A DNA stretch of 25,974 nt from a bacterium. GTDB lineage: Bacteria; UBA9089; JASEIO01. The notes under the pieces were generated by a model. It saw only the letters and a list, made by a program, of their open reading frames with translations, had not been told where the DNA came from and ran no database searches. The stretch is from positions 1 to 25,974 of the forward strand of contig JASEIO010000020.1 in NCBI GenBank assembly GCA_030017475.1, read 5' to 3'. Numbering within the stretch: the first letter of the stretch is position 1; the number at the start of each line of letters is the position of its first letter. Positions 84-21,271 of this stretch are shown piece after piece. The position numbers and the translations under genes are program-made.

Positions 84-325
84 TATCTATCTGAAGCAGA
101 ATCAACTCTACCATTTTTCTTGACAATAGTAGGTATCTATGATACCATCTCGGTAAGGTTATCTTAGGGAATATCTTTGAACGGGCAATTCACAAAACAT
201 CTAAAGATTACCCTATATTCCAATATCTAAAGGTTACGGATTTCGGAATCTCCTTTAAGGATCTAAAAGATAATGTAGCTGGAAAGGAAATTGACGACGA
301 AGATCTAAGAGGGAAAGATGGATGA
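84..325 (+). pseudogene. Decayed copy of the small helical family found at 2852-3580
   Basis: From 143 to 325 one frame reads a protein-like stretch containing LGKVILGNIFERAIHKTSKD, then PIFQYLKVTDFGISFKDL, with no ATG, GTG or TTG in it and a TGA at 140-142 just upstream. It aligns by eye with both intact small proteins downstream: TVFIVKRALKKT...LEITETGICL in the first and LGAVTVNALLEASIHH...MEFDYDGI in the second. A likely N-terminal piece (FLTIVGIYDTI) lies in another frame around 117-150, about a dozen codons closer than in the intact copies. This suggests a frameshift plus a small deletion. The conserved C-terminal TNLF segment is also missing. Its stop overlaps the start of the next gene by 8 bases, as expected for a former operon member. 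A sequencing error could explain the frameshift but not the missing segment. Confidence 0.5.
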
Positions 326-1901
326 AGGAAGTAGAAGATTAAAAAGTCTTTATAATATTAGTAAATTTATGTCATCTACTATTGAGTTAGATGAGTTGTT
401 AGATATAATCATGGATTCAGTAATCGAAGAATTACAAGCAGATACTGGATCATTGATGCTACTTTCGGAAAAGAAGGAAGAACTTTATATAAGGGTAGCC
501 AGAGGTTTAGCTAAAGATGTCGTAGAGTCAACTAAGGTAAAATTGGGTTATGGGATTTCGGGTTTTGTGGCCAAGAATAAAGAGCCACTTCTTTTGGTTG
601 GAACGGTAAAAGACCCTAAATTGAAAAAGATCATGGAGGAGGAAAGGGAAGAGATAAAGAGTGCTTTATGTGTTCCTTTACTTATAAAAGATGAGGTTAT
701 CGGAACCTTATCGGTTAAAAGGATCGAAAGGGATGGGGATTTTTCTCAAGATGATTTAGAACTCCTCTCTTTATTTGGAGTACATGCTGCTACCTCTATT
801 GAAAATGACCGCCTCTTTAAACAACAAAAAAGAAGGGTAGAAGAACTAATAAGGATTTCTACCGTTTCCCGTATCATCAATTCGCTTCTTGACAAAGAAC
901 AGATATTTGATCTATTATCCAGGGTTTTGCGAGAAATGGTTGGTTTCTCTATCTGCTCCTTAGGTTTAGTAGAAGATTCTGGAACGGCAGTGTTAACTGT
1001 AAAAACTGCTGAAAAGATAGAGGATTTTCCATCCTTAACTGACCAGATAAAGGAAAATCTAATCCAGACATTCTCTGTATTATCAGATTCTCAAATTAAG
1101 GAAACAAAGGTAGAAGTGCAGGAAATGGAAAATTTTGATAAAAAAAGGTCGATTAAAAAAATAAGATCTTTCCTAACTGCCCCTTTGATAGTAAAAGACC
1201 AGGTTAATGGATTGATATCTATTGGATCTCAATTTGAGAATGCTTATGAATCCGAAGACTTAAGAATCCTTTCTACCTTAGCTAATCAGGCAGCCATCGC
1301 CATTGAAAATACTACATTGTATACCCGTCTTCAAGATGCATATATTTCAACCATAAAAAGCTTTATGGCTGCTGTAGAGGCAAGGGATGTGTATACAAAA
1401 GGACACTCAGAGAAGGTAACCAAATTTTCAATAGAGGTTGCTAAAAGAATGGGATTGGACAAGGATGAAATAGAAGCCATTCATGATGCAGGACTGTTAC
1501 ATGATATTGGTAAGATTGGAATCTCGGATGCAACCCTAAGGAAACCTGGCAGATTAACTGATTCAGAGTATAACCTAATCAAAAATCATCCCCAGATTGG
1601 GGTGCATATTGTAGAGTCAATAAAGAAGCTTGGTAAGGTGATTCCCTTAATCTATTATCATCATGAGCGCTATGATGGAAAGGGTTATCTATACGGATTA
1701 AAAGGAGAGGATATTCCGCTTGGTGCAAGAATCTTGGCTGTTGCGGATGCCTTTGATGCCATGACATCAGATAGACCTTATCGGAAAGCCATGAAGAAAG
1801 AATTAGCCCTTGAAGAAATAAAGAAAAACGCAGGTAAGCAATTTGATCCCAAGGTTGTGGAGGTCTTTCTATCCCTATATGGAGAAAATGAGGAGGGGTA
1901 A
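318..1901 (+). CDS. GAF-GAF-HD-GYP cyclic-di-GMP phosphodiesterase
   Basis: This 527-residue cytoplasmic signalling protein has two GAF sensor domains (about residues 20-160 and 180-335) followed by an HD-GYP domain (about 345-520). The HD-GYP catalytic set is present: H363 in a GHS motif, H395-D396 in LLHDIGKIG, and HHERYDGKGY at 448-457, then ADAFDAMTSDRPYR. HD-GYP domains hydrolyse cyclic di-GMP, and some act on cGAMP. The canonical GYP proline is leucine here, which is tolerated in many members. The start is ATG at 318, preceded by a purine-rich GAGGGAAAG. It is the first intact gene of the operon and is followed after 3 bases by a REC-GGDEF-like protein, so synthesis and breakdown of the same messenger may be paired. 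The GAF ligands cannot be read from sequence. Confidence 0.93.
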   Translation: MDEGSRRLKSLYNISKFMSSTIELDELLDIIMDSVIEELQADTGSLMLLSEKKEELYIRVARGLAKDVVESTKVKLGYGISGFVAKNKEPLLLVGTVKDPKLKKIMEEEREEIKSALCVPLLIKDEVIGTLSVKRIERDGDFSQDDLELLSLFGVHAATSIENDRLFKQQKRRVEELIRISTVSRIINSLLDKEQIFDLLSRVLREMVGFSICSLGLVEDSGTAVLTVKTAEKIEDFPSLTDQIKENLIQTFSVLSDSQIKETKVEVQEMENFDKKRSIKKIRSFLTAPLIVKDQVNGLISIGSQFENAYESEDLRILSTLANQAAIAIENTTLYTRLQDAYISTIKSFMAAVEARDVYTKGHSEKVTKFSIEVAKRMGLDKDEIEAIHDAGLLHDIGKIGISDATLRKPGRLTDSEYNLIKNHPQIGVHIVESIKKLGKVIPLIYYHHERYDGKGYLYGLKGEDIPLGARILAVADAFDAMTSDRPYRKAMKKELALEEIKKNAGKQFDPKVVEVFLSLYGENEEG

Positions 1902-1904
1902 GGG

Positions 1905-2855
1905 ATGGCTGGAGAACATGTTTTAATTGTAGAGGATGATGAAGATACAGTCAAATTATTAAGGAATTTGTTAAAAAAGGAGACCTTCCAATTAAGTGTT
2001 GCTGAAGATGGGAATGAGGCCTTAAGAATGGCCAAAAATCTTCAACCTCACATAATCCTGCTTGATATTATTATGGCTGGACTTAATGGATTTCAGGTTT
2101 GTGAAAAACTGAAAAACAATTTTTATACCTCTCATATTCCTATTATCATGTTAACTATTAAGGAGTCAACCTTTGATAGAATAAAGGGTTTAGAGATAGG
2201 TGCAGATGATTATATAGCCAAACCTTTCGATCCTAAGGAATTGGTCGCAAGAATCCGGGCGGTTTTGCGGAGAACCCATTTAGAAAGGGATGTCAATCCA
2301 TTAACTGGATTACCAGGAAATATTATGATAGAAAAGGAGATAAAAAGAAGGATAGAATCTGGAGAATTGTTTGCAGTACTTTATGCTGATATAGATAATT
2401 TTAAGGCCTACAATGACTATTATGGCTATAGTTTAGGGGATAGGGCTATAAAGTTTATTGGAGACGTAATCCTTTCTTCGGTTGAGGGATATGGAAATGA
2501 GTCGGATTTTGTTGGTCATATTGGTGGAGACGACTTTATAATTGTTACAACACCTGATAAGACAGAACCAATATGTAAGAATATTATTGGCACTGTGGAA
2601 TCTACATCCAGCCATTTATATGAAGAAGAGGATAGAAAAAGGGGATATATTGAGGTTAAGAACAGATGGAATGAGACCTTAAGATTTAATACCCGATTTG
2701 AGATAACCATTGCTTCGGCTACTAATAAATATAGAAGGTTAAGTTCTCATGTTCAGGTATCAGACATCCTGGCGTCAGTCAAAGAATATGGCAAAGCGCA
2801 GAAAGGCAGTATATGGGTGGAAGATAAGAGAAGGCATGAGGAAGTGAAGAAATGA
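1905..2855 (+). CDS. Response regulator with receiver and GGDEF-like domain
   Basis: The first ~120 residues form a receiver domain: acidic pocket VEDDED, phospho-acceptor D54 in LLDIIM, T84 and K106 in the AKPFDP motif. Residues ~130-305 form a GGDEF fold, with PLTGLPGN at the start and DIDNFKAYND, which matches the usual DxDxFKxxND guanine and metal site. The signature loop is GGDDF (207-211) instead of GGDEF or GGEEF. The catalytic glutamate is therefore aspartate, and activity may be reduced or lost. The C-terminal part is diverged from typical diguanylate cyclases. The ATG sits 3 bases after the HD-GYP stop, with a GAGGAGGGG ribosome site inside the previous gene. Its stop overlaps the next start as ATGA. 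No histidine kinase is encoded nearby, so the phosphodonor is unknown. Confidence 0.9.
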   Translation: MAGEHVLIVEDDEDTVKLLRNLLKKETFQLSVAEDGNEALRMAKNLQPHIILLDIIMAGLNGFQVCEKLKNNFYTSHIPIIMLTIKESTFDRIKGLEIGADDYIAKPFDPKELVARIRAVLRRTHLERDVNPLTGLPGNIMIEKEIKRRIESGELFAVLYADIDNFKAYNDYYGYSLGDRAIKFIGDVILSSVEGYGNESDFVGHIGGDDFIIVTTPDKTEPICKNIIGTVESTSSHLYEEEDRKRGYIEVKNRWNETLRFNTRFEITIASATNKYRRLSSHVQVSDILASVKEYGKAQKGSIWVEDKRRHEEVKK

Positions 2856-3202
2856 TACAGGACTTAGAAACTCTAATTAAGGGTGGTTTAAAACCCAAGG
2901 ATAAGATAGAGATAATTAAGATATATGAGGATCTATTCCGGGAATTTTGGGAGAAATTGACCAATTCTCTTGATCCAACTACCACTGTATTTATTGTGAA
3001 AAGGGCCTTAAAAAAGACCCAGGAACAACATCCGGTGTTATGCAACTTAGAGATTACAGAAACCGGCATATGCCTCAGTAGGCTTAACATAGACGGGGTA
3101 GAAATAAAGGAGATTGTCTCTGCCTTTCGGGAATTGGCTACCAATCTATTTGCTATTGTAACTAAGTTAACTGGTGGGATAATAATGGATAAATTACTTT
3201 AG
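2852..3202 (+). CDS. Small helical protein, paralog of next gene (unknown family)
   Basis: This 116-residue protein has no recognised domain, signal peptide or membrane segment. It appears mostly helical, with a short predicted beta segment in the middle (LEITETGICLSRLN). The pattern is shared with the protein at 3212-3580 and the relic at 84-325: a helix holding IYxDL, a helix holding an Ala-[LI]-[KH] stretch, a hydrophobic strand ending in GI, and a last helix with TNLF. The start overlaps the previous stop (ATGA), so translation is coupled. Its place between the response regulator and the KaiC-like gene suggests an adaptor or regulator for one of them, but that is inference from position only. 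Overall layout is faintly like V4R-type sensor folds; I cannot establish that relationship. Confidence 0.8.
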   Translation: MIQDLETLIKGGLKPKDKIEIIKIYEDLFREFWEKLTNSLDPTTTVFIVKRALKKTQEQHPVLCNLEITETGICLSRLNIDGVEIKEIVSAFRELATNLFAIVTKLTGGIIMDKLL

Positions 3203-3211
3203 GAGGTGGTT

Positions 3212-3580
3212 ATGGAAGAGAAAAAAGGGGCTGATCATAAAAAGGGACTGATATTGATGATCTATACAGATCTCTTGGTAAGCATATGGAAAAAAACAGT
3301 GGTCATCTTGGGTGCAGTTACGGTAAATGCACTCTTAGAGGCATCTATCCATCATATTGGAAAGATCTATTCGTTTTTAAAGGACATGGAATTTGATTAT
3401 GATGGGATATATCCAGAAAGGATTAAGTATGAAGAGGTATCAACGGATGAGATAAAGAAGGGATTCACTGCCTTAATAACCAATCTATTTGAAGAGATAT
3501 CTGAATTAGCAGGTCGATCTATGGCTGAACAGATAAAGAAAGAGATGGAGCGGGCCCATCTTCCTGGAGGTGAAGAATGA
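3212..3580 (+). CDS. Small helical protein, second paralog (unknown family)
   Basis: The protein is 122 residues from the ATG at 3212. A GTG at 3206 is in frame, but it lies within the ribosome site AGGAGGT (3201-3207), so the ATG with its 5-base spacing is the better start. It shares layout with the upstream paralog: MIYTDLLVSIWKK corresponds to KIYEDLFREFWEK, then LGAVTVNALLEASIHH, a strand segment ending DYDGI, and a final helix with ITNLFEEI matching LATNLFAIV. The C-terminus is charged. No enzyme motif is visible. It ends with ATGA overlap into the KaiC-like gene. Side-by-side duplication with divergence suggests a heteromeric pair. Confidence 0.8.
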   Translation: MEEKKGADHKKGLILMIYTDLLVSIWKKTVVILGAVTVNALLEASIHHIGKIYSFLKDMEFDYDGIYPERIKYEEVSTDEIKKGFTALITNLFEEISELAGRSMAEQIKKEMERAHLPGGEE

Positions 3581-5661
3581 AAAGGATAAAGACTGGAATC
3601 TCAAATCTTGATTTGATATTAGAGGGGGGATTACCAATCTATTCAGTCAATATCATTTCGGGTCACCCTGGTACAGGTAAAACTATCCTTTCCCAACAGA
3701 TAATATTTAAAAATGCCACGCCACAGAATAAGGCTTTATGTCTAACAACCCTATCCGAACCCACCATGAAGATGATAAGGTATCAAGAAGGATTTAGCTT
3801 TTTTCAACCAAATAAGGTAGGTGATTCTGTATTCTTCACTGATATTGGACTTGTAATTAGAAAGAAAGGGCTCGACGAGACCATCAATTTCATTATGGAA
3901 AAGGTAAAAGAGATTGAACCATCCTTTATAACCATCGATTCATTCAAGGCCATCCATGATCTTGCCCAAACAGAGATGGAGATGAGGAAATTTATCTATG
4001 ACCTATCAGTCAAACTCTCCAGTTGGAAGATTACAACATTTCTGATTGGTGAGTATCAAGAGGTTGAGATATCAACAGAGCCCGAATTTGCTATTGCTGA
4101 TGGAATCATCTATTTAGAACACAATTTAGGGACAAGGAATTTAAGGGTGCTAAAGATGAGAGGAACTGGATATATGTCTGGAAATCACTTCTATTTCATC
4201 GATAAAAATGGCATAAATCTATTCCCTCATAAAGTAGAGGTTAAAAGAAAGGAGATAAAAGAGGTTTCGGTAAAGACAGGGATTTTAGAGCTTGATCAAT
4301 TGCTTGGAGGTGAACTCCCCTTTAATTCAGTAACCCTTCTCTCAGGAATTACTGGTGTTGGAAAGACGATTCTATCCTCCCAATTCCTTTATAATGGTGC
4401 AACGATGTATAACCAAAAGGGGATTGCCTTTCATTACGAGGAACATCCAGATGAGTTTTATAAAAAGATGAGGAATTTTGGCTGGGATTTTCAAAGATTA
4501 GAAGAAGAGGGTAAGTTAAAGGTAGTATATACATCATTTACAGATTTAAACATCGATGAGCACTTATCCCAGGTAAAGGAATTGATTTCACGTTTTGAAC
4601 CAGTTAGGGTGGTATTTGATTCTATTCCAGCCTTAATGCACCAGATTGGAAGGGATGAGTATCTTGTAGGAAATAAGATTGGGGAATTACTCAATCTATT
4701 AAAGGGTTTAGGCTGCACCCCAATTCTAATTACAAGATCAAATGTGGATATAAGTGAGTTTAAGGAGGACTCCTTAGTAGACAACATAATAATCCTAAGG
4801 GACTATAAGCAAGAAGAGAAAAGGAAGAGGAGTATAGAGGTCTATAAGACAAGAGGTGGAAGACATGTGATGGGGGAGCATAGGATGCAGATCACTGATC
4901 AGGGAATTAGGTTATTCTATACATCCCCTGTTAGGATAAAAAGAGAGGTGTTGAAGACTGTCTCTTTTTCTCCCCTTGATGGTCTCCTGAAAAAGGAATT
5001 CCCATTCAGTACATCATGGTTAGTTCTTGGTGATACCGATATAGGAAAGTCCATATTTGTCTATCAGTTTCTATGGCAGGGATTGAGAAAGGGTGAATCA
5101 GCCATATATATTGGTACTGATGAACCAATAGAAAACACACGGGAGAATTTAGGTGCATTTGGTTTTGTGACCACACCGTTTGAAAGGGAAAATAGATTGA
5201 TATTGATTGATGGTTTCTCCCCTGCAAGTGATGAACATTATTATATATCTGATCGGACAGATATGGAAGAATTCATCCATATTATAAGCTCTGCCCTATC
5301 CAAGGTTAAAAAACCTTGTCGAGTAGCATTTGATTCCTTAGCCTCAATAGCCATAAATTATTCTAAGGATGAGTTCGTAAAGCTGATCTATGAGAAGAAC
5401 CGTACCTTACAACAGGAGGATGTAGTCTTAATGGATTCCTATCTTTCTCAAACCTTAGAGAAGGACGAGCTATACAATCTTACTAATACCTATGATTTTA
5501 GGATTGACTTATACTTTGGAGAAGAAAAGGCTGGAGTGCCAAAGAGGTATATAAGGTTGAAAAAGGTTTCTGGTAGGGCCTATGATCCAAGACCATTTCC
5601 ATATACTATAAAGGTTGGAGAGGGGATTATAGTTGATAAGGAATTTTATAAAGGGGGTTAA
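3577..5661 (+). CDS. Triple-domain KaiC-like RecA-type ATPase
   Basis: Three KaiC/RecA-like ATPase domains follow one another in 694 residues, whereas classical KaiC has two in about 520. Walker A motifs are GHPGTGKT (29-36), GITGVGKT (257-264) and GDTDIGKS (485-492). Walker B aspartates are D121 (FITIDSFKAI), D348 (VVFDSIPAL) and D586 (VAFDSLASI). Only the middle domain has the paired catalytic glutamates typical of KaiC (E288-E289 in HYEEHP). The first has a single E61 in SEP and the third a single E516 in DEP. The domains may therefore have different activities, with the middle one the likely main hydrolase. No KaiA or KaiB is present, and the KaiC autophosphorylation serine-threonine pair is not evident. 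It is coupled to the small gene before it (ATGA) and lies 3 bases before the V4R gene. A role as a signal-integrating oligomeric switch is inferred. Confidence 0.92.
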   Translation: MKRIKTGISNLDLILEGGLPIYSVNIISGHPGTGKTILSQQIIFKNATPQNKALCLTTLSEPTMKMIRYQEGFSFFQPNKVGDSVFFTDIGLVIRKKGLDETINFIMEKVKEIEPSFITIDSFKAIHDLAQTEMEMRKFIYDLSVKLSSWKITTFLIGEYQEVEISTEPEFAIADGIIYLEHNLGTRNLRVLKMRGTGYMSGNHFYFIDKNGINLFPHKVEVKRKEIKEVSVKTGILELDQLLGGELPFNSVTLLSGITGVGKTILSSQFLYNGATMYNQKGIAFHYEEHPDEFYKKMRNFGWDFQRLEEEGKLKVVYTSFTDLNIDEHLSQVKELISRFEPVRVVFDSIPALMHQIGRDEYLVGNKIGELLNLLKGLGCTPILITRSNVDISEFKEDSLVDNIIILRDYKQEEKRKRSIEVYKTRGGRHVMGEHRMQITDQGIRLFYTSPVRIKREVLKTVSFSPLDGLLKKEFPFSTSWLVLGDTDIGKSIFVYQFLWQGLRKGESAIYIGTDEPIENTRENLGAFGFVTTPFERENRLILIDGFSPASDEHYYISDRTDMEEFIHIISSALSKVKKPCRVAFDSLASIAINYSKDEFVKLIYEKNRTLQQEDVVLMDSYLSQTLEKDELYNLTNTYDFRIDLYFGEEKAGVPKRYIRLKKVSGRAYDPRPFPYTIKVGEGIIVDKEFYKGG

Positions 5662-5664
5662 GGA

Positions 5665-6420
5665 ATGGAGAGGACACAAGTTTTAATAGTTGGTGCTGGT
5701 AAAAGGGGAAGCGCCTTTATTGAAACCTTTCACGGGTCAGAAGGGATAAGGATTTTAGGGGTAGTGGATATAGATAAAACTGCCCCAGGGCTTAAATTGG
5801 CTAAAAGACACAAGATACCTATATCAGATGACTTTAGGAGATTTATCAAGGATGCAAACCTAATCCTAAATCTTACTGGATTAGAGGATGTACAGGCTGC
5901 CTTAGAGCATTTTAAACCTGAAGGTAGTGAGGTACTGACAAAATCTGGTACCAAAATGATAACGGATTTGCTTATGAAATGGAAAGAGGCAACAGTGACC
6001 CGACGTTTTATGGGAGAATTGTTGAGTGATTTTGTAGAAGAGACCTCTGCATCAAGCATCTCTATGTTTAATATTGGTAAAAGGTTTTCAGAAAGGATTG
6101 AAGGGAATCTAAAAGACCATTTAGATACATTTAAGGGTTATGGCTTGGGAACCTTAGAATTAGAAGAGATAGATGAAGAGGAGGGAGAGGTCTCTTTTGT
6201 TGGAAGAAACCTGTTTGAAAGTTATAAGAGATCGGATTATCCACAGGATCACTTCGCTAAAGGATTCTTAGCCAAGACTGTCTCAAAATTGGCTGGGGTC
6301 CCGGAGATGAACTGCGAGGAGATGGAATGTGTAGCGAGAGGGGACGAAATATGTAGATTTATCGTATGTCCTACAAAGAGACTAAAGATTATGGGCTTAC
6401 GAAAGAGTCTGGAAAAGTGA
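5665..6420 (+). CDS. Rossmann-fold and V4R-domain fusion sensor protein
   Basis: Residues 1-100 look like an NAD(P)-binding Rossmann fold: VLIVGAGKRGSAF (glycine-rich loop), then VVDID at the end of the second strand, where D35/D37 favours NAD over NADP. Residues ~112-240 match the V4R (4-vinyl reductase) fold, ending in the four-cysteine signature C217, C222, C230, C235 (CEEMECVARGDEICRFIVC). V4R domains bind small hydrophobic ligands or metal and often act as sensor modules. The protein has 251 residues, no signal peptide, and is probably cytoplasmic. The catalytic part of a full dehydrogenase is absent, so nucleotide binding may be regulatory. It is the last gene of the signalling operon, 3 bases after the KaiC-like gene. 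The joining of these two folds is unusual to me. Confidence 0.8.
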   Translation: MERTQVLIVGAGKRGSAFIETFHGSEGIRILGVVDIDKTAPGLKLAKRHKIPISDDFRRFIKDANLILNLTGLEDVQAALEHFKPEGSEVLTKSGTKMITDLLMKWKEATVTRRFMGELLSDFVEETSASSISMFNIGKRFSERIEGNLKDHLDTFKGYGLGTLELEEIDEEEGEVSFVGRNLFESYKRSDYPQDHFAKGFLAKTVSKLAGVPEMNCEEMECVARGDEICRFIVCPTKRLKIMGLRKSLEK

Positions 6421-6489
6421 AAATCCGGAGTACACAGAAAATATATAATAAAGCTGTACAGCTGCTATATTGAGAGGGTAGTATTGGTG

Positions 6490-6533
6490 AGAAGTGGTGG
6501 GATATGATAAATCTGTAATTTCCCACCACCTCT
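6490..6533. repeat. Inverted repeat between convergent transcription units
   Basis: Arms 6490-6502 and 6521-6533 pair over 13 positions with one mismatch (core GTGGTGGGA with TCCCACCAC) around an 18-base loop. It lies after the signalling operon and before the minus-strand genes. There is no T-run on either side, so it is not a standard intrinsic terminator. It may still protect or end both converging transcripts. A second short palindrome, AGCTGTACAGCT, lies at 6452-6463. I see no coding signal between 6421 and 6538 on the plus strand. Confidence 0.4.
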
Positions 6534-6538
6534 TCCCT

Positions 6539-6721
6539 CTACACCCCCCAGCTAACCTCCGTGTCAGCCACCTTTCTTACTATACAAAAAGGATACTTTA
6601 CATTACGAAATCTTATTATCTTTTCTATCTCTTTTTTACATGAGGAGATTTTGGGAATAAGTGAATTAGATGCACCATGGAAGAGGGAATTAGCGGTAGG
6701 GAAGCCTTTTCGTAGATCCAT
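6539..6721 (-). CDS. Possible 60-residue hypothetical protein
   Basis: On the minus strand an ATG at 6721 is preceded by a strong ribosome site (GGAGGG, 8 bases upstream) and opens 60 codons ending in VADTEVSWGV. The frame stays open further 5' to a TTG at 6781, but no good ribosome site serves that start. It lies directly downstream of the ROK kinase on the same strand, so it could be the second gene of that transcript. I recognise no family or motif; it contains two isolated cysteines and several Lys/Arg. A chance reading frame cannot be excluded. Confidence 0.3.
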   Translation of the reverse strand: MDLRKGFPTANSLFHGASNSLIPKISSCKKEIEKIIRFRNVKYPFCIVRKVADTEVSWGV

Positions 6722-19856: not shown

Positions 19857-20786
19857 TTGAGAGTATTGGTCACAGGAGGAGCAGGTTTTATTGGCAGTCA
19901 TTTATGTGATCTATTATTGCGGAAAGGCCATAGGGTGATCTGTATGGATAACCTAATTACGGGAAGCATGGCTAATATAAGTCATATTAAATCAGAGGAG
20001 TTCCAGTTTTATAAACATGATGTCTCAGAATATATAGAGGTGGAAGATAGACTTGATTATATTCTCCACTTTGCCTCCCCTGCCTCACCCATTGACTATT
20101 TAAGACTTCCTATTCAGACCTTGAAGGTTGGTGCCTTAGGGACACATAAAACATTAGGCTTAGCAAAGAAGAAGAGAGCTTCCTACCTCTTAGCTTCCAG
20201 CTCAGAGATTTATGGAGATCCTTTGGTCAATCCACAGCATGAGGATTATTGTGGAAATGTGGATCCAATTGGACCAAGAGGGGTGTATGATGAGGCAAAG
20301 CGTTTTGCTGAAGCAATGGTTATGGCTTATCATAGGGTTCATGGAGTAGATACCCGAATTGTCCGAATATTCAATACCTATGGCGAAAGGATGAAAATAG
20401 ATGATGGTCGAGCAGTCCCTACCTTTATCTATCAGGCATTGCTCGGAAAACCAATAACTGTTTTTGGCGATGGAAGTCAAACCAGGAGTCTTTGCTATAT
20501 CACGGATACGATTGAGGGAATATATAAGCTTATCTGTTCAAACATCAATGACCCTATAAATATTGGTTCAGAAGAGGAGATAACCATCTTAGAGTTAGCT
20601 GAAAGGATAATCAAACTCACCCGATCGAAAAGTAAGATTGTGCATAACCCATTACCTGTGGACGATCCCAAAGTGAGACGACCGGATATTACCAAAGCGA
20701 AAAGGCTTCTTCAGTGGGAAGTAAAGGTATCCCTTGATGATGGGTTACGTATGACCATTGACTGGTTCAAGAATCTTAGCAAGTAG
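19857..20786 (+). CDS. NAD-dependent nucleotide-sugar epimerase/dehydratase, UDP-glucuronate decarboxylase-like
   Basis: A 309-residue extended short-chain dehydrogenase. The NAD loop is GGAGFIG (7-13), the [11 protein letters not shown] motif at 71-81 is typical of UDP-glucuronate decarboxylases (UXS), and the catalytic pair is Y144-K148 in VYDEAK, with S114-S116 nearby. UXS enzymes make UDP-xylose; dTDP-glucose 4,6-dehydratases are the close alternative. The UXS signature usually reads SCYDEGKR, whereas here it is GVYDEAKR, so the substrate may differ. It starts with TTG at 19857 after AAGGGG with 7-base spacing. The last codons and stop lie in the P1 helix of RNase P RNA. It groups with the oxidoreductase and acyltransferase downstream in making surface sugars. 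Confidence 0.88.
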
Positions 20787-21136
20787 ACCAGGTGATCGGG
20801 TCCTTGACATCTTTTTGTGTCGAGGATCAGGAAAGTCTGAGCTCCATAGGGCAGGGTGCTTGGTAACACCAAGTGGGAGTGATCCTAAGGAAAGTGCCAC
20901 AGAAAGGGAGACTACCGAAGGCGAAGTTTAGCCAGGTAAAGGTGAAAAGGTGAGGTAAGAGCTCACCAGAAGACTGGGTGACCAGTTTTGCTTGGTAAAC
21001 CCCACCTGGAGAAAGACCAAATAGGAGAGGGAGTTGCCCGCTCAATCCTCTCGGGTGGGTTGCTTGAGACATATGGTAACATATGTCCCAGATAGATGAT
21101 CACCAAATACAGAACTCGGCTTATGGTCTACTTGCT
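20778..21136 (+). ncRNA. rnpB: RNase P RNA, class A
   Basis: The catalytic RNA of RNase P. Conserved blocks are present in order: GGAAAGTCTGAGCTCC (P4 5' strand, CRI), ATAGGGCAGGGTGCTTGG..AACACC, GGAAAGTGCCACAGAAA, GGTGAGGTAAGAGCTCACC, TTGGTAAACCCCACC (L15 site for tRNA 3' ends), AAGACCAAATAGG, GGGTTGCTTGAG, and ACAGAACTCGGCTTAT (P4 3' strand). P4 shows a compensatory change from the common GGG/CCC to GAG/CTC. P2 pairs 20791-20797 with 21098-21104. P1 pairs 20778-20789 with 21125-21136 over 12 bp. The 5' strand of P1 includes the end of the preceding coding region. The spacer 21137-21271 shows no gene. Confidence 0.97.
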
Positions 21137-21271
21137 ATCTTATCAAAGAAGATTAACTACAGAGAAAAATTTTAAAGAAGCGTCTATCAGAAGAAGGCTT
21201 GGCTTAATTTTGGGAGGTTTGAAAAATTCCATTTACTGGAAAGCTCAAAGGTCAAAAAAGAGGAGGTTAAA

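Follow-up and report, generated by a model that had tools for sequence, protein, structure and literature searches.

A family of small proteins, here called SM, is encoded directly upstream of, or fused to, a subfamily of KaiC-like ATPases in bacteria of at least 12 phyla, and is very probably a true partner of these ATPases. The adjacency and the fusion are observed; physical binding we infer from them. In the window (the whole 25,974-nucleotide stretch of bacterial DNA analysed here) two SM genes share an operon with a three-domain KaiC-like ATPase, two proteins of cyclic-di-GMP (c-di-GMP) enzyme families and a predicted V4R sensor.

KaiC-like ATPases, relatives of the cyanobacterial clock protein, occur all over bacteria, and outside cyanobacteria their partners and function are mostly unknown. 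A conserved, unnamed partner offers a concrete handle on them: a protein to co-purify, a gene to delete and an output to measure, whether histidine kinase or c-di-GMP enzyme. Our search of the open-access literature for KaiC together with V4R, with HD-GYP or with a small protein encoded 5' of it returned no paper describing the gene set, SM or the SM-KaiC pair, in agreement with an earlier reading of this DNA made from the sequence only, which knew of no described system of this composition. It is probable that a signalling module of wide distribution has so far been overlooked.

The window operon

Six intact genes (318–6420) run in one direction, with every junction either a 3-base gap or a 4-base overlap; open reading frames and junction coordinates thereby confirm the six co-directional genes with 3-base gaps or ATGA overlaps reported by the sequence-only reading. 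Their order is GAF-GAF-HD-GYP, REC-GGDEF, small protein A, small protein B, KaiC-like ATPase with three domains, and Rossmann-V4R.

59–295, + strand: decayed third SM gene copy, not an intact ORF (SM profile E 3.3e-9, 3 stop codons)
318–1901, + strand: GAF-GAF-HD-GYP, 527 aa, predicted cyclic-dinucleotide phosphodiesterase (Pfam HD_5 1.6e-39, GAF_2 twice)
1905–2855, + strand: REC-GGDEF, 316 aa (gap 3; Pfam Response_reg 1.5e-30, GGDEF 3e-16)
2852–3202, + strand: small protein A (smA), 116 aa, SM family (overlap 4; SM profile 1.1e-37)
3206–3580, + strand: small protein B (smB), 124 aa, SM family (gap 3; SM profile 1.3e-39)
3577–5661, + strand: KaiC-like ATPase, 694 aa, 3 KaiC domains (overlap 4; Pfam KaiC ATPase PF06745 in 3 stretches, 7e-108)
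5665–6420, + strand: Rossmann-like N-terminal domain plus V4R, 251 aa, predicted sensor (gap 3; V4R 1.1e-10, DapB_N 0.0024)
6476–6547, + strand: imperfect hairpin 3' of the last operon gene (inverted repeat, 30-nt arms, 73% complementary)

A purine-rich, Shine-Dalgarno-like stretch lies just 5' of most gene starts, and smB starts at either GTG (3206) or ATG (3212). The operon had been given as 84–6420. Its end at 6420 holds and its start does not, as the first intact gene begins at 318 and 59–295 is the decayed SM copy, which ends 22 bases 5' of the HD-GYP gene. The readable remnant of this copy is ILGNIFERAIHKTSKDYPIFQYLKVTDFGISFKDL, and its last part (170–295) is matched by the broad SM profile too. 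Position 1 of the window is a contig end, which puts the real beginning of the cluster, and anything upstream of it, out of view. Beyond the last gene, the hairpin is a possible transcript end; it has neither a T-tract terminator nor an Rfam match.

The HD-GYP protein carries the motifs LLHDIGK and HHERYDGKGYL, in which the HD and HHExxDG residues are kept and the signature reads GYL, that is, all but the P of GYP. Its best PDB matches are cyclic-dinucleotide phosphodiesterases, and it is predicted to be one. The REC-GGDEF protein retains the substrate motif DIDxFKxxND...GD, reads GGDDF at residue 207 instead of the GG(D/E)EF active-site motif and lacks the allosteric inhibitory RxxD (I-site). 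The GGDDF motif and the lost RxxD render its activity uncertain, and the GGDEF domain may be inactive. A segment reading YGYSLGD had raised the suspicion of a hybrid, cGAMP-making GGDEF; this was rejected because the selectivity aspartate, the D of 'GD', is kept. The protein belongs to a multi-copy family with paralogs mostly elsewhere in the genome and phylum, and is probably a local recruit.

The three KaiC domains of the ATPase (about residues 1–222, 225–455 and 460–694) each have a Walker A motif and a Walker B-like strand, and these RecA-like domains assign the protein by sequence to the KaiC superfamily. In two sister genomes the third KaiC domain is a separate gene, followed by SM, KaiC1-2 and a Rossmann-V4R-PAS protein with 45–46% identity to the window Rossmann-V4R. 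A Chloroflexota locus (L097) reads KaiC - SM - KaiC - third KaiC domain - V4R, its genes overlapping or closely spaced, and the third domain is fused, as in the window, in Acaryochloris and (as far as the contig runs) Ammonifex. These layouts indicate that SM, KaiC1-2 and the third domain form an old arrangement, to which V4R is attached in two phyla: V4R adjoins KaiC in the window, two sister genomes and one Chloroflexota genome only. The sister genomes G001 and G006 have SM-KaiC-V4R with no HD-GYP gene nearby. As for the previously proposed Rossmann-V4R fusion, the V4R domain is well supported by its profile match and keeps its conserved cysteines; the Rossmann match is weak.

The SM family and its link to a KaiC subfamily

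smA and smB are paralogs (28% identity over 88 aa, E 4e-10), and neither has a Pfam or NCBIfam family, which bears out the earlier description of two small paralogs of an unnamed family. Among the members of a 41-row SM alignment there were no Pfam matches and no resemblance to any PDB sequence, and NCBIfam gave a doubtful match for just one member (E 1e-3). For smB, weak Pfam hits to Dynein_light and FlpD (E > 0.1) were dismissed. SM is therefore a candidate widespread domain absent from Pfam and NCBIfam, annotated 'hypothetical protein' in the records checked, including its members in PLSDB plasmids. The scan of close relatives returned no viral homologs.

AlphaFold models of smB (pLDDT 92) and of a member of the other deep SM clade (pLDDT 86) are predicted to have a common topology of a long helix or helix pair, a short helix, a beta hairpin and a long helix. 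Profiles of the two clades, built from disjoint sequences, aligned with an hhalign probability of 96.7% (E 4e-10). The profile match and the topology common to both models establish SM as one family across the two clades. Foldseek searches of the PDB with models of both clades gave no match at E <= 0.001. The highest VIA-align Z score was 6.9, to unrelated helical proteins, and such matches may, for helical models, reflect just a common arrangement. Two tandem SM genes lie 5' of KaiC in about ten loci, as in the window. A single ancient duplication as the source of these twins was rejected: the tree, which is rough and built on few columns, separates the window smA and smB from the Acidobacteriota tandem pairs, so the twins probably arose more than once.

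A profile covering KaiC1-KaiC2, run against 84,980 species genomes, yielded at least 518 confirmed relatives, and the best 80 were taken with their flanks for counting. By ORF count plus six-frame search, 66 of these 80 best loci have SM immediately 5' of the KaiC-like gene or fused to it (46, 19 more and 1 fusion). In one further locus SM preceded a neighbouring KaiC gene instead, and 13 were without SM, at least one of them being cut by a contig end. The SM-KaiC loci fall into at least 12 phyla: Acidobacteriota, Verrucomicrobiota, Planctomycetota, Gemmatimonadota, Chloroflexota, Armatimonadota, Pseudomonadota, Myxococcota, Bdellovibrionota, Bacillota, Cyanobacteriota and Fibrobacterota. The recurrence of the order in so many phyla argues that it is not due to chance. 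In many phyla the junctions are overlaps or very short gaps, and in Bacteriovorax (L099) SM and KaiC form a single ORF. An SM profile made from the window's phylum only, before the 80 loci were seen, matched 19 of the 1,221 ORFs in them, all in SM-KaiC clusters; iteration converged on 81 ORFs across all loci read, with zero matches among reversed decoys.

In a sample of 386 genomes, SM was present in 9 of the 10 having a high-scoring KaiC of the window type (E < 1e-120), in 2 of the 33 whose KaiC-like genes are of other kinds and in 4 of the 343 that lack any. This supports the link, yet it is not independent of the window's phylum, to which 8 of the 10 high-scoring genomes belong. Searches starting from SM gave four PLSDB plasmid records, in which KaiC followed directly in two, followed in frameshifted form in one and was missing in one, and gave only four genomes in the phylum of G382. 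Nine genomes of the window's phylum have SM; eight of them also have a KaiC-like gene, with the two adjacent in seven, and in seven a GAF-GAF-HD-GYP gene lies with SM, KaiC or both. The small proteins, KaiC and HD-GYP thus keep together in related genomes, as the sequence-only reading had grouped them, and do not lie mostly apart, the pattern by which that reading would have been refuted. Its view of the set as a signalling module is supported. Of its full gene set, V4R recurs in part and REC-GGDEF is probably a local addition.

SM also occurs in KaiC-free contexts, for example in G010, G113, G120 and G251, and is therefore not exclusive to KaiC. It is fused to a receiver domain (REC) in L092 and L159, to DUF4388 in L093 and to a PAS-histidine kinase in L088, L089 and L091. 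In G001 and G006 it is a free-standing protein encoded in clusters with FHA and PP2C proteins nearby. Judged by these contexts, SM probably serves signalling proteins more generally as an adaptor, most often with KaiC as the partner. The role of adaptor, already proposed for the two window proteins, is the most likely one given the genetic tie to KaiC-like ATPases across phyla, including the Bacteriovorax fusion, and the fusions to signalling domains.

Genes beside the SM-KaiC pair and a proposed mechanism

GAF-GAF-HD-GYP genes accompany both SM and KaiC in the window and in G013, G018 and G014 of the same phylum. In G012 the order is KaiC - HD-GYP - histidine kinase, and in G007 and G010 the gene directly follows SM with no KaiC. 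SM abuts GAF-GAF-HD-GYP in G013, G018, G007 and G010, as does the decayed SM copy in the window; in G013 and G018 there is, in addition, a GAF-GAF-GGDEF gene whose motif is intact. In other phyla the slot after SM-KaiC is usually taken by a histidine kinase (8 of 10 loci scanned; also L175), so the general output may be something other than c-di-GMP. The earlier statement that no kinase is encoded describes the window operon only. The same slot holds a GGDEF protein in Thermanaeromonas (L104), GGDEF-EAL in Glaciimonas (L130) and Solimicrobium (L170), and a GGDEF-histidine kinase fusion in two Caballeronia plasmids. Together with HD-GYP in the window's phylum, this amounts to a c-di-GMP linkage in at least three phyla through different enzymes.

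We propose that the core is a two-part module of a small helical SM protein and a KaiC-like ATPase, which by homology to KaiC would form a ring. SM, as an adaptor or regulatory subunit dedicated to the ring, would bind it and relay its state, whether of bound nucleotide or of phosphorylation, to an enzyme partner; the information could also travel the other way. In the window, smA and smB would connect the three-domain ATPase with the GAF-GAF-HD-GYP phosphodiesterase, and perhaps with REC-GGDEF, so that the c-di-GMP level would respond to what the ATPase, the GAF domains and the Rossmann-V4R sensor detect. To SM as an adaptor or regulatory subunit of a KaiC-like ATPase hub, wired here to c-di-GMP turnover, we give about an even chance. 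The SM family, its position 5' of KaiC, its fusions and the repeated linkage to c-di-GMP enzymes are observed; binding, the direction of control, c-di-GMP as output and V4R as input are what the proposal would add to them. Taken separately, c-di-GMP turnover as the output of the window operon could equally prove right or wrong. More tentatively, SM could be the general partner so far missing for a large KaiC subfamily of bacteria, coupling ring to output independently of KaiA and KaiB in at least 12 phyla. The two main outputs would then be c-di-GMP turnover and phosphorelay, and SM paralogs would be interchangeable adaptors; this broader version has somewhat less than an even chance.

Competing explanations and known systems

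A rather unlikely alternative keeps SM as the KaiC partner and makes a two-component phosphorelay (histidine kinase, REC) the output, with HD-GYP and GGDEF as merely co-regulated neighbours. The prevalence of histidine kinases 3' of KaiC outside the phylum, the kinase following HD-GYP in G012, the fusions of SM to histidine kinases and REC and the REC protein of the window operon are consistent with such an output. It accounts less well for HD-GYP abutting SM where KaiC is missing (G007, G010), for the independent filling of the post-KaiC slot by GGDEF, GGDEF-EAL and GGDEF-histidine kinase in Bacillota and Burkholderiales, and for a window operon that has no kinase. That the cluster is kept by co-transfer only, SM having a function unrelated to KaiC, for instance as a dimerisation cap for signalling proteins in general, is improbable: its several KaiC-free contexts and its fusion to many signalling domains would fit, whereas the near-constant position immediately 5' of KaiC, where the two genes in many phyla overlap or are only a few bases apart, and the direct SM-KaiC fusion would not be expected.

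The least probable explanation, which we regard as very unlikely, is a circadian or hourglass timer in which a KaiC-like ring times c-di-GMP and SM takes the place of KaiA and/or KaiB. KaiB (PF07689) was matched in none of 19 genomes of the window's phylum, with the control genome S. elongatus matching, and KaiA (PF07688) had no match in the window genome, with matches in the other two genomes searched, one of them Acaryochloris; the absence of both, noted earlier for the operon, thus extends to these searches. When the ATPase was aligned to KaiC, D398 and S399 fell at the positions of S431 and T432, the adjacent autophosphorylation pair of KaiC CII, and the Ser/Thr phosphosite pair is therefore not conserved. 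SM as a distant KaiA C-terminal domain was rejected at an hhalign probability of 0.4% (E 0.16), with two sequences only on the KaiA side. The SM models combine helices with a predicted beta hairpin and KaiA has a four-helix bundle; KaiA is absent among the fold matches listed, which decides nothing. The host has no known relation to light or day. A KaiABC-type clock is thus unlikely here, given the lack of KaiB and KaiA, the failure of SM to align with KaiA and the unconserved phosphosite pair. In favour of a timer, the ATPase is of the KaiC family and the S. elongatus clock responds to the level of c-di-GMP (PMC13001216). The position of SM and the REC-SM fusions also recall KaiA3 of Synechocystis, in which a receiver domain is joined to a KaiA-like C-terminal domain and whose gene lies 5' of kaiB3 (PMC11372060). 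KaiA3 demonstrates that receiver-fused KaiC partners exist.

The adaptor reading borders on several known systems. In the cyanobacterial KaiABC and KaiA3-KaiB3-KaiC3 clocks (PMC5520375, PMC11372060) a KaiC-family ATPase likewise has small partners encoded upstream, KaiA3 resembling REC-SM; unlike them, the window has three KaiC domains in addition to the differences above. Rhodobacter sphaeroides has a bacterial kaiBC-histidine kinase operon (PMC5520375), which pairs KaiC with a histidine kinase as do most SM-KaiC loci outside the phylum, but there the small partner is KaiB rather than SM. The window c-di-GMP pair resembles other GAF-HD-GYP and REC-GGDEF enzymes in domain make-up and, for the HD-GYP protein, in most catalytic motifs, and differs in its GGDDF motif and in sharing an operon with a KaiC-like ATPase and SM. 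V4R sensor proteins include the phenol sensors PoxR/MopR and archaeal MsvR. The window protein has in common with them a V4R domain with conserved cysteines, whereas it has an N-terminal Rossmann-like domain, no DNA-binding domain was found in it and it is encoded after KaiC. KaiC-like ATPases have been proposed as archaeal signalling hubs (Makarova, Galperin and Koonin 2017, cited in PMC5847659). In these hubs, too, KaiC-superfamily ATPase domains are found in signalling gene sets alongside receiver domains, sensor domains and domains that bind small molecules; they are described for archaea, whereas the window is bacterial and adds c-di-GMP enzymes and small partners of an unnamed family.

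SM genes outside the operon

In each of the sister genomes G001 and G006 a second SM gene (L054:7473-7844 and L055:3483-4007) lies among genes for an FHA/FG-GAP protein, a PP2C-PEGA phosphatase, an OmpA protein and a GH3 glycosidase, and no KaiC gene was found near it at either locus. This FHA/PP2C cluster suggests that SM may have a further role in Ser/Thr phosphorylation signalling. The kaiA-carrying genome G340 encodes an SM protein (L087:7566-8000) distant from its KaiC-like genes. The KaiC-like gene that follows SM on plasmid pSBC2-3 of Caballeronia sp. SBC2 is broken across two frames (L226:4324-5843) and is absent from the gene table of the plasmid record. Other Caballeronia plasmids carry two SM-KaiC-GGDEF/kinase sets, both intact.

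HTH_17 and Rossmann-like proteins within the phylum

Small DNA-binding proteins are encoded directly 5' of KaiC-like genes in two genomes, and in G007 the two genes overlap by 4 bases:

L049:1792-2121 (G007) and L048:5445-5735 (G013), small HTH_17 (excisionase-like) proteins

In other genomes of the phylum, long proteins (about 590-645 aa) start with the Rossmann-like domain that forms the N-terminus of the V4R protein, and in some cases they are encoded close to receiver-domain genes:

G008:C58, G003:C1 and G012:C181 (loci L180, L181, L184), long proteins opening with this domain

RNA features of the window

Just 3' of the operon is an inverted repeat with neither a T-tract nor an Rfam match:

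6476-6547, imperfect hairpin, 30-base arms

Class A RNase P RNA (20780-21138) overlaps the 3' end of a sugar-epimerase-like ORF (19857-20786).
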